Part shown: positions 1-44,130 of the stretch, one piece after another
Layout of the letters: each line of letters begins with the position of its first letter
Numbering within the stretch: the first letter of the stretch is position 1
DNA from: an uncultured bacterium
Lineage (GTDB): Bacteria > Cyanobacteriota > Vampirovibrionia > Gastranaerophilales > Gastranaerophilaceae
DNA length: 44,130 nucleotides
Reading direction: 5' to 3'
Assembly (NCBI GenBank): GCA_949297715.1
Contig: CASFTJ010000013.1
Span: 1-44,130 of the forward strand
The notes under the pieces: model-generated
What the model saw: the letters and a program-made list of their open reading frames with translations, nothing else
What the model was told of the DNA's origin: nothing
Database searches by the model: none
Position numbers and translations under genes: made by a program

Positions 1-91
1 GCTGTAGTGCTTTTGCGATTTGCGAATGCAAATTAGCAAAACACGAAATGCCGTTACACGCGAGCGACCAAGACAATCGCGCCGGGGCCGG
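1..91 (+). repeat. Partial tRNA-tail hairpin element (left edge copy)
   Basis: The window opens inside a copy of the element also seen after tRNA-Gly and tRNA-Tyr near the right end. Bases 51-76 (GCCGTTA, then GCGAGCGACCAAGAC) match the Tyr copy almost exactly. Bases 11-41 form a strong hairpin (TTTTGC, ATTTGC / GCAAAT, GCAAAA) at the place where the other copies carry hairpins of different sequence. After AAGAC comes AATCGCGCC GGGGCCG, which reads as the T-loop 3' half, T-stem and acceptor strand of a tRNA. The parent tRNA would lie left of base 1. The reading frame through 3-126 is open, but I see no reason to call a gene. Confidence 0.6.
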
Positions 92-114
92 ATTTTTTTG
101 GGGGGAGGATAATT

Positions 115-702
115 TTATTTCTGCATAAACCAATCAAGCATCGGACGAATTTCGCCGAACTCCAAAGAGCTAAACTCCTCAGGCAAATTCCTTTCATAAT
201 AATTCAGATTTAAAGAATGTTTTACAGGAGATTCCACCCCGAAATTTTTGAAGTTTTCAACTATCACATCTTTGCCATCATAAACTTCTGAGTAATTCAA
301 TCCCTCATTTACACACTCAGGCAATTTCACATAAACACCATTTTCAGAATTTTCAAAACATGCAAGCCCATGCGCACGACAAACAAGCCCTCGTCTTTCA
401 TATAAAAAACAAGTTTTTTCTTCTGACAAAAAAGGACACCTGTGCATAAATCGCCCGTTAAAAGAAGCTTTATCTTCTAAAAGTCTTTTAATTTCAGCTT
501 TTATCTTTTTTTGAGCTTGAACATCCAACGTCAAAATCCCTGCCATCAAATATTCCATCTCAAGCCGTGAAAAAGGATAATCTCCAACTTCACAACATAA
601 AGAACATCCTTTTTTGCATTTAATAAAAGGTTTCTGGCTCTCAAATTCCGCTTCAAGAGTATTATCTATGAGTTCCAAATATTTCTTATACAGGCTGAAC
701 AT
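115..702 (-). CDS. YkgJ-type CxxCxxCC-cluster protein (putative metal-binding)
   Basis: A 195-residue soluble protein with the cysteine cluster typical of the YkgJ family (putative zinc- or iron-chelating domain): C29, C33, C36, C37, followed by C89, C98, C108 and C115 in the contexts HRCPF, TCFLY, LVCRAHG and LACF. Family members are widespread and thought to bind Fe or Zn (some resemble Fe-S proteins), but no reaction is firmly assigned. No signal peptide or membrane segment is visible, so it is probably cytoplasmic. Its ATG lies inside the end of thyX (17-base overlap), so the two are very likely co-transcribed and translationally coupled. The name is based on the cysteine pattern; the biological role is unknown. 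Confidence 0.8.
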   Translation of the reverse strand: MFSLYKKYLELIDNTLEAEFESQKPFIKCKKGCSLCCEVGDYPFSRLEMEYLMAGILTLDVQAQKKIKAEIKRLLEDKASFNGRFMHRCPFLSEEKTCFLYERRGLVCRAHGLACFENSENGVYVKLPECVNEGLNYSEVYDGKDVIVENFKNFGVESPVKHSLNLNYYERNLPEEFSSLEFGEIRPMLDWFMQK

Positions 703-38268: not shown

Positions 38269-38343
38269 GCGGGGGTAATTCAGTGGTAGAATGCCTCCTT
38301 GCCAAGGAGGATGTCGCGAGTTCGAGCCTCGTCTCCCGCTCCA
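38269..38343 (+). tRNA. tRNA-Gly (anticodon GCC)
   Basis: Complete cloverleaf: acceptor GCGGGGG/CTCCCGC, anticodon loop TTGCCAA, T-arm GCGAG TTCGAGC CTCGT, discriminator T and encoded CCA. A terminator follows at 38350. Its 3' part from T-loop position 58 is duplicated 190 bases downstream. Confidence 0.97.
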
Positions 38344-38534
38344 TAAAGAAGAGTCTGAATTTCAGGCTCTTTTTTATTTTATAGGGAGATTTTGACGAGA
38401 ACTCGCTTTTTCGAGTTCGGCGACCTGTGAGCAGAGGGCGAAGGCTTGCCTGCGTATGGATTAAACCATTTAAGCAGGCAACCGAAGACCCGTTTAATGC
38501 GAGCAGGTCAAGACAGCCTCGTCTCCCGCTCCAT
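38325..38534 (+). repeat. tRNA-Gly tail duplication enclosing a hairpin element
   Basis: The 20 bases 38325-38344 (T-loop A58 through CCA plus T) recur exactly at 38515-38534. Between them lie the tRNA terminator, a hairpin GAACTCG/CGAGTTC (38399-38418) ending in GTTCG, and a 95-base insert (38420-38514). The insert has GTGAGCAGAGG, a central hairpin TTGCCTGC/GCAGGCAA (38446-38481) and ends GCGAGCAGGTCAAGAC. The same framework is found after tRNA-Tyr and at the window start. No gene is encoded. It looks like a short mobile or structured element fused to the T-loop. Confidence 0.75.
38350..38377 (+). terminator. Terminator of tRNA-Gly
   Basis: Hairpin AGAGTCTG / CAGGCTCT (one G-T pair) followed by a T run, starting seven bases after the CCA end. 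Confidence 0.85.
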
Positions 38535-38771: not shown

Positions 38772-38830
38772 TTAACTTAAAAATCAATGCACTTATAAGA
38801 ATTTTATGATATAATAAAAACGGAGTTATT

Positions 38831-39949
38831 ATGAATATAGAAGGCAAATATACAACAGCCAAAATTTACGCATCAACAATAGATGACGGCACAATAGAAC
38901 AAACAAAAAACATTTGTGACCACCCGATTTTTGCGGACTGTAAAATCCGCATCATGCCTGACTGCCACAAAGGGAAAGGGTGCACAATAGGTTTCACCTC
39001 AGAAATGCCCAAAGGCGGAGAAATTATTCCAAATATAATCGGAGTAGACCAGTCTTGCGGAATGTATGTCGTCAAGCTAATTGATTCAGATAACTTGGAC
39101 GAATATGAAAAACTAGATAAAGTAATCAGAAAAAATATTCCGACAGGAACAGGTGCAAGAAAAGAGCTTAGTGAACTTATTCAGGAAGAACTCAAAGAAA
39201 AAATTTGCCAAATTTCAAAAGATATTTTAAAAGAAGAATCGAGCGAGGAAGATTTACTCAAAATCGGAACTTTAGGAAGCGGAAATCATTTTATCTCAAT
39301 TGAAAAAGGGACAACAGGAACTTATTTAATAATCCATAGCGGCTCAAGAAATTTTGGGAACAAGCTTGCAATTCATTTTCAAAATCTTGCAATAGAAAAA
39401 AACTGTTACGGTGATAATTATTTAAAACAGCTTTCATATCTGACAGGAAAAGATGCCGAAAATTATTTATACTGCGCCGATGTATGCCGGGATTACGCCC
39501 ACTGGAGCAGAAAAATAATGGCGGAAGAAATTCTTAAGAATATGAACTGGCAAGCAGAAGAAACATTTGAAACCCTGCACAATTATATCGGAAAAGACAA
39601 TATAATTCGCAAAGGCGCAATTTCAGCACATAAAAATGAAAAAGTTTTAATACCTTTAAATATGGCAGACGGCTCACTAATATGTATCGGCAAAGGCAAC
39701 AAAGACTGGAACGATTCAGCCCCGCACGGTGCAGGCAGAATAAGCACCCGCACCCAAGCTAAAGCAAACCTTTCAATGGATGAATACAAATCAAGAATGC
39801 AAGGAATTTTCACGACCTGTATTTCTACAGGCACACTTGATGAGTCGCCGATGGCATACAAAAATGCCGACGAAATTATAAAATCAGTAGAACCTACAGT
39901 TGAAATTATTGACCACATAAAACCTCTATACAATTTTAAAGCAGGTTAG
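38831..39949 (+). CDS. rtcB: RtcB-family RNA ligase
   Basis: A 372-residue RNA ligase that joins 2',3'-cyclic phosphate and 5'-OH RNA ends using GTP and Mn2+, repairing cut tRNAs. Metal and active-site residues are visible: MPDCHKGKG, D73 and C76 (GVDQSCGM, where E. coli has GVDIGCGM), GNH at 151-153, H169 (IHSGSRNFG), H250 (LHNYIG), and the guanylylated H299 in PHGAGR. It is on the short side of the family. A TATAAT at 38810 and CGGAG precede the ATG. No archease or RtcA/RtcR gene is adjacent. It is the first intact gene after tRNA-Gly and its tail element. Confidence 0.93.
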   Translation: MNIEGKYTTAKIYASTIDDGTIEQTKNICDHPIFADCKIRIMPDCHKGKGCTIGFTSEMPKGGEIIPNIIGVDQSCGMYVVKLIDSDNLDEYEKLDKVIRKNIPTGTGARKELSELIQEELKEKICQISKDILKEESSEEDLLKIGTLGSGNHFISIEKGTTGTYLIIHSGSRNFGNKLAIHFQNLAIEKNCYGDNYLKQLSYLTGKDAENYLYCADVCRDYAHWSRKIMAEEILKNMNWQAEETFETLHNYIGKDNIIRKGAISAHKNEKVLIPLNMADGSLICIGKGNKDWNDSAPHGAGRISTRTQAKANLSMDEYKSRMQGIFTTCISTGTLDESPMAYKNADEIIKSVEPTVEIIDHIKPLYNFKAG

Positions 39950-40100
39950 ATATTTACATTCTAATTAAGTGGAAATATTATTCGATTTGTAACTGCAATT
40001 CGCCAATAGAAAAAAGTTTGTGCTATGATTTTTATTAATATAATTCAGGTTAGCAAAAATATTTTTGCTTGTTTTTTAAATACCATAAAAGGCAACTCTA

Positions 40101-43397: not shown

Positions 43398-43648
43398 TTT
43401 GAGCCTTTGTGGCAAGGACTCCGCGCAGTTAACTGAGTGTTAACGGAGTGGAGGGTGAGTAGCAGAACTCCATTGGTACATTTGTTCAAAACAATTTGAG
43501 CCTTTGTGGCAAGGACTCCGCGCAGTTAACTGAGTGTTAACGGAGTGGAGGGTGGGTGTGGCAAGGACTCCGCGCAGTTAACTGAGTGTTAACGGAGTGG
43601 AGGGTGGGTGGCAGAACTCCATTGGTACATTTGTTCAAAACAATTTGA
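43398..43648 (+). repeat. Tandem palindromic repeats carrying tRNA-Thr 5' ends
   Basis: A unit of about 97 bases is repeated. It begins GCCTTTGTGGC (the exact first 11 bases of the following tRNA-Thr), continues with a core of about 50 bases containing a hairpin ACTCC..GTTAAC / GTTAAC GGAGT, then GCAGAACTCCATTGGTA and TTGTTCAAAACAA. The core occurs three times (at about 43410, 43507 and 43559); the second unit is cut short by 52 bases. The part after the core resembles the anticodon arm and T-loop of tRNA-Thr(GGT), so the units look like degenerate tRNA-Thr copies with an insert in the D-arm. No gene is found here. Confidence 0.7.

Positions 43649-43737: not shown

Positions 43738-44130
<393 letters not shown>

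Follow-up and report, generated by a model that had tools for sequence, protein, structure and literature searches.

Right end of a probable RtT-like mini-element array behind tRNA-Arg(CCU) at a contig edge of a Gastranaerophilales genome

The window analyzed here is the whole of contig C13 (44130 nt) of a Gastranaerophilales genome (G000), and its base 1 is the assembly end on the left. The first 90 nt are the right end of a ~180-nt unit that is cut by the left contig edge, and the unit is followed by the minus-strand gene of a Cys-cluster protein. The tRNA-Gly(GCC) and tRNA-Tyr(GTA) genes of the window are each followed by a related element (Table 1). Downstream of the Gly(GCC) element lies a gene that reads from its sequence as an RtcB-like RNA ligase (38830-39950). 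Positions 43408-43640 hold elements of mirror-image, 5′ type, in which the 11 nt that begin tRNA-Thr(GGT) (GCCTTTGTGGC) recur in tandem, each copy being followed by a conserved hairpin core with the loop TTGAGT or CTGAGT. The same genome has elements of this 5′ type ahead of tRNA-Ile(GAT), Leu(GAG), Met and Val(GAC), and a model of their core has matches in 14/14 genomes of the genus, with 2-55 copies each. At the right edge, 44042-44130 is identical over ~88 nt to the end of another contig (G000:C20:25591-25679, minus strand) inside the second Tyr unit, so that C13 and C20 can be joined.

Table 1. Positions of the elements, tRNA genes and neighboring gene in the window
Feature	Position	Strand	Basis
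3′ part of element core, class A: end of P4 hairpin, internal loop, CGTTA, ACGCGAGCGACC, CAAGAC	1..74	+	R1 match; left half on contig C28
ACGCGAGCGACC, 3′ strand of tandem G-A helix	within 1..74	+	
CAAGACA end motif, ahead of the tRNA tail copy in nearly all elements	69..75	+	Per-element tables
Displaced 3′ tail copy of tRNA-Arg(CCT): T-loop 75-77, T-stem CGCGC 78-82, acceptor CGGGGCC 83-89, discriminator G 90	75..90	+	Identity to 3′ end of C28:84-157
Copy of tRNA-Arg trailer; direct repeat extends past the tRNA	91..129	+	75-129 98% identical to C28:45-99
Cys-cluster protein gene A, YkgJ-like judged from its cysteines; synteny anchor	115..702	-	Orthologs/paralogs in 9/14 genomes of the genus; adjoins tRNA-Arg(CCT) in G010
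tRNA-Gly(GCC)	38269..38343	+	ARAGORN
Gly-linked element, class B core: anti-tail arm 38384-38399, core 38414-38519, tail copy 38515-38534	38384..38534	+	R1 36.4 bits; direct repeat; fold z -5.4
tRNA-Tyr(GTA)	43738..43823	+	ARAGORN
Tyr-linked element, complete unit: anti-tail arm 43861-43872, core 43890-43990, tail copy 43986-44004	43860..44004	+	Direct repeat; fold; R1; full-length RtT match of 16.4 bits, sub-threshold
Second Tyr unit, cut by right contig edge; continues in contig C20 (reverse complement)	44005..44130	+	Exact ~88-nt overlap; direct repeat; R1

In a search of the window's own genome, positions 45-78 match the end of the Tyr-linked element (43956-43989) with 94% identity (E 5.9e-8), verifying the initial annotation, which had equated 51-76 with that insert end. 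Covariance model R1, which was built from other copies with window 1-79 left out, matches 1-79 with 48.6 bits (E 5e-15), the 5′ side of the match being cut by the contig edge. The element then gives way to AATCGCGCCGGGGCCG, which is identical to the 3′-terminal 16 nt of the tRNA-Arg(CCT) gene carried by contig C28. The earlier reading of this tail, both its sequence and its parse into T-loop, CGCGC, CGGGGCC and G, stands, while its position is 75-90 rather than 77-91. Furthermore, a search of the genome with the first 400 bases shows that 75-129, comprising the tail and 39 nt of trailer, matches C28:45-99 (minus strand) with 98% identity (E 1e-20); the tail match between window and C28 is not due to chance. 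The element does lie at a contig edge, and the contigs of G000, G002, G005 and G008 all break in the tRNA-Arg(CCT) array, as would be expected of an assembly artefact or chimera with an accidental tail match to C28; but G004, G006 and G010 carry copies at the same locus within single contigs, which makes an artefact highly improbable.

Because contig C13 stops at base 1, a tRNA to its left is not directly readable. Contig C28 carries tRNA-Arg(CCT) at 84-157 (minus strand), with exactly the tail found in the window and oriented toward the window's left edge. Its sequence, GGCCTCG...CGCGCGTTCGAATCGCGCCGGGGCCG, is followed by CTCCGGCTACGATGAGAACGCC...GTTCGAGCGGGAGC, where C28 ends; this last stretch supplies the left half of the element, and the window begins with its right half. 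There is no overlap between C28 and C13, and ~8 nt, or whole extra units, are missing between them. Specifically, if one unit spans the gap, ~8 nt would be missing, the unit would measure ~181 nt as gauged from related copies, and tRNA-Arg(CCT) would lie ~91-165 nt left of base 1; with more units it would lie farther away. In the relative G010, a single contig comprises gene B, tRNA-Arg(CCT), a truncated element and the ortholog of the window gene at 115-702, and this synteny places tRNA-Arg(CCT) beside the window's first gene. The C28 gene, the G010 synteny and the estimated distance together support the earlier prediction of a tRNA with the same tail about 100-200 bases left of base 1. Its proposed identity as tRNA-Glu or tRNA-Asp was wrong, as the tRNA found has the anticodon CCU along with discriminator G, and its acceptor 5′ strand is GGCCTCG, with one G-U pair, in place of the expected GGCCCCG. 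In its narrow form the tRNA prediction is right, and by now ordinary. The tRNA-Arg(CCT) array lies between two paralogous Cys-cluster genes that share ~41% identity (window 115-702 and L007 300-950), and a shorter second RtcB-like ORF is present on C28 past tRNA-Arg(CCG) (L007 5521-5952).

The elements share one order, 5′ to 3′: tRNA, terminator-like hairpin, anti-tail arm, GATGAGAA, T-arm hairpin, core, CAAGACA and tail copy. Units measure ~150-200 nt, the T-arm hairpin is built with the tRNA's own T-arm 5′ half, and the tail copy begins at about T-loop A58. The hairpin between tRNA and element, which resembles an intrinsic terminator, is found in 42/50 first units versus 92/2000 random stretches. 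GATGAGAA is present in the arms exactly in 16/91 cases and with at most one mismatch in 34/91, compared with 0 and 2 in control stretches. The arms are predicted to pair more stably with the tail of their own tRNA (-13.1 kcal/mol) than with those of other tRNAs (-10.0 kcal/mol), and in this swap test 0/5000 permutations reach the observed mean.

The core is strongly structured. In particular, 80% of its cells are paired, and covariation amounts to 0.477 versus 0.112 after shuffling; in a larger set the values are 0.326 and 0.100, and slid-partner controls abolish the signal. A tandem G-A is invariant (G-A in 92/92, A-G in 90/92) and its flanking pairs covary, and a second, outer tandem G-A is present in 82/92 elements. 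Whole-element folds beat their shuffles in three of five tested cases (z -3.3, -5.4 and -5.1), the Leu and Ser copies giving -1.4 and -0.8. A degenerate tandem tRNA duplicate, that is, a pseudogene with random sequence between its halves, would account for the tail copy and the T-arm half, which do derive from the tRNA; this very unlikely reading is refuted by the core, whose conservation and covariation extend over unrelated kinds of tRNA and whose sequence is not that of a tRNA. A G-U wobble on one DNA strand corresponds to A-C, a mismatch, on the opposite strand. G-U pairs make up 0.9% of the standard pairs in the elements, versus 8% in the acceptor stems and 6% in the anticodon stems of tRNAs of the same loci, which, for sequences related to one another, gives only a hint that the fold may be kept at the DNA level.

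Model matches are present in 13/14 genomes of the genus, some of the weakest being without tRNA linkage; element counts range from 0 in G011 to 13 or more in other genomes. Across the phylum, model R2 has matches in 117/292 genomes, 116 of them in the window's own family, although absence outside the family is weak evidence because the survey used strict filters and a model trained on that family. The contig names of the matches are those of Candidatus Gastranaerophilales/Melainabacteria gut MAGs. A same-strand tRNA lies 62-298 nt upstream of 60 of 100 distinct elements, with 19 anticodon kinds and tail copies of up to 19 nt; by our estimate (~42 tRNAs in 2 Mb), chance would give such linkage in <1%. 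Throughout the Gastranaerophilales, tRNAs of at least 19 kinds are followed by such units. A literature search on repeats in Gastranaerophilales found nothing relevant.

Comparison of orthologous tRNA loci reveals gain, loss and exchange. Behind tRNA-Arg(CCT), class A is found in the present genome and in G010 (truncated), class B in G002, G004, G006 and G008, a truncated unit in G005 and no element in G013. Among the genomes read at tRNA-Tyr, four sites are filled, with class A in G000 and G010 and class C in G002 and G008, and seven are empty. The filled tRNA-Tyr site of G008 differs from the empty sites of G004 and G006 by 202 bp, cleanly inserted and accompanied by a direct repeat of 25 nt, AATCCACCCCTGCCCAAACTTTTTT. 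Without these 202 bp the locus reads like the empty sites, tail, AAACTTTTTT, terminator and gene all falling in register, and an insertion of this size leaves no room for an integrase gene. Insertion into the tRNA 3′ end is discrete and leaves the tRNA with an entire tail of its own, a second tail copy with some trailer lying beyond the element. The length of the direct repeat varies by site, from 25 nt at tRNA-Tyr in G008 to 55 nt at tRNA-Arg in the present genome, unlike a fixed target duplication, which weighs against a mobile element.

A wide range of tRNAs are followed by nearly the same core, with arms and tail in each case fitting the tRNA of the locus. Specifically, cores behind tRNA-Ser(GCT) and tRNA-Leu(GAG) are up to 94% identical, whereas their arms are only ~49% alike, indicating that cores travel between tRNA loci and that arms and tail adopt the local tRNA. 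This fit also speaks against mobility: for arms and tail it holds without exception, and simple cut-and-paste would need copying or later conversion to produce it. At tRNA-Leu(GAG) (L014 1501-1740), a class C core (GGATTTGC...GCAAATCC) directly follows the AAGACA of a class A core, in a nested or composite arrangement. A further tail-repeat class, with an unrelated core that ends in AGCAAAG before the tail copy, lies behind tRNA-Thr(CGT) in the present genome (L031 from 1575) and behind tRNA-Leu(CAG) in G013 (L304).

The elements are built like the RtT RNA of the Escherichia coli tyrT operon. In E. coli rttR, behind tyrT/tyrV, GGGGAAGG pairs with CCTTCCCC and is followed by GGATGAGAA, AAGGTTCGA, CGAGCGnnAGCGAG and a tail copy, in four units. 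Both systems comprise a ~180-nt unit 3′ of a tRNA that ends in a copy of the tail of that tRNA, an arm complementary to the tail and containing GATGAGAA, a T-arm 5′ hairpin with GGTTCGA, AGCGnnAGCGAG, and tandem copies. Both also have a covarying helix around a tandem GA, as reported for RtT (PMC7657543, PMC8250186). In Salmonella, RtT is reported as a 175-bp VNTR (PMC2658671), and RtT has also been reported beside tRNA genes in Pasteurellaceae (PMC4986893). The present elements differ in having another core, the CAAGACA end, several core classes, filled and empty sites, and tRNA partners of at least 19 kinds instead of tRNA-Tyr, and in belonging to another phylum. With the Rfam RtT model (RF00391, gathering cut-off 45 bits), the best score is 16.4 bits, for the Tyr element, while the E. 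coli control exceeds the cut-off; no match above it was found in 40 family genomes or at 20 element loci, and an Rfam scan of the element loci of the window's genome returned only tRNA above threshold. As the cut-off is missed, the elements are not filed as RtT, only as built like RtT. Conversely, our core model R1 gives 7 bits on E. coli rttR, which is no support, so that the link to RtT lies in the architecture and short motifs.

The shared architecture also bears on an alternative in which transcripts of tRNA operons contain the unit as a functional, RtT-like RNA domain that is under RNA selection, tandem-amplified and not mobile. Such a domain would be released by tRNA processing enzymes via a pseudo acceptor/T helix, and the likeness of cores would arise by gene conversion. 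RtT is reported to be released from tRNA transcripts and, in Actinobacillus, where it lies next to Asn and Lys tRNA genes, to be seen on Northern blots (PMC4986893), and the covarying tandem-GA helix reported for RtT has its counterpart in the strong covariation found here. An RNA domain is nevertheless disfavored by the terminator-like hairpin between tRNA and most first units, by presence and absence at orthologous tRNAs, and by the scarcity of G-U pairs, and we regard it as unlikely, albeit as an alternative of some weight.

The favored reading, a mobile element, is illuminated by two known systems. Integrative elements (ICEs, prophages and islands) have att sites in tRNA 3′ ends, as described in a passage of PMC9897764 that cites Williams 2002. 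Like them, the present elements target the tRNA 3′ end, leave one complete tRNA and a displaced tail copy, and show a direct repeat that starts in the T-loop; at tRNA-Tyr of G008, the direct repeat of the tRNA 3′ end bounds a discrete insertion absent from relatives. Unlike them, the units are 150-200 bp long, lack an integrase gene, form tandem arrays and are fitted to many tRNAs, with a strongly folded core inside the second T-loop. With IS200/IS605-like and REP/RAYT elements they share small size, non-coding nature, conserved imperfect hairpins and a low G-U content that suggests DNA-level constraint, but they differ in their flanking direct repeat and tRNA-specific arms and in the absence of a Y1 transposase from the present genome.

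A Y1 transposase (PF01797), the natural suspect where single strands fold, was considered as the mobilizer and rejected, since none was found in G000 and only 2/31 Y1 loci have an element within ~1.5 kb. PF01797 is present in 1/14 congeners and 119/383 family genomes, and the element in 116 family genomes among those sampled. The only Y1 transposase of the genus (G006:C16:1459-1962, L310) is encoded ~60 nt past the tail copy in an element linked to tRNA-Leu(CAA); with palindromes of its own, GTAGGTCGGATTTACTAATCCGAC, on its flanks, as in REP/RAYT pairs, it reads like a REP-associated transposase.

We conclude that window 1-90 is probably the right end of the last unit in an array of RtT-like mini-elements behind tRNA-Arg(CCU) that are non-autonomous, tail-targeted and tandem-amplified. 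Such an element would need no gene of its own and would be moved by a putative enzyme, from the host or a phage, that acts where T-loop and tail lie. The exchange would bring or duplicate a tail, allowing the tRNA to survive the insertion, and the long direct repeats would let units multiply and shrink via unequal exchange; the same repeats may have broken the assembly at both ends of C13. An RNA released from the units may have a role as well, as proposed for E. coli RtT. More tentatively, RtT and the present units could belong together in one broad, so far unrecognized class of mini-mobile elements at tRNA ends, moving as single DNA strands in folded form. A helper enzyme would insert the tandem-GA core at the T-loop, arms and tail would be copied from the host tRNA, and a mirror class would occupy tRNA 5′ ends; we regard this wider scheme as possible rather than probable.

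The element adds a new form to the RtT-like kind, which is known yet poorly understood. RtT has so far been an isolated curiosity of gamma-proteobacterial tRNA operons, and finding its architecture behind many tRNA kinds in another phylum, with filled and empty sites and exchange of cores, makes it a testable element class. The genome set offers unusually good data for the mechanism and a direct route to the enzyme that moves the elements, and the elements explain assembly breaks at the tRNA loci of these gut bacteria.
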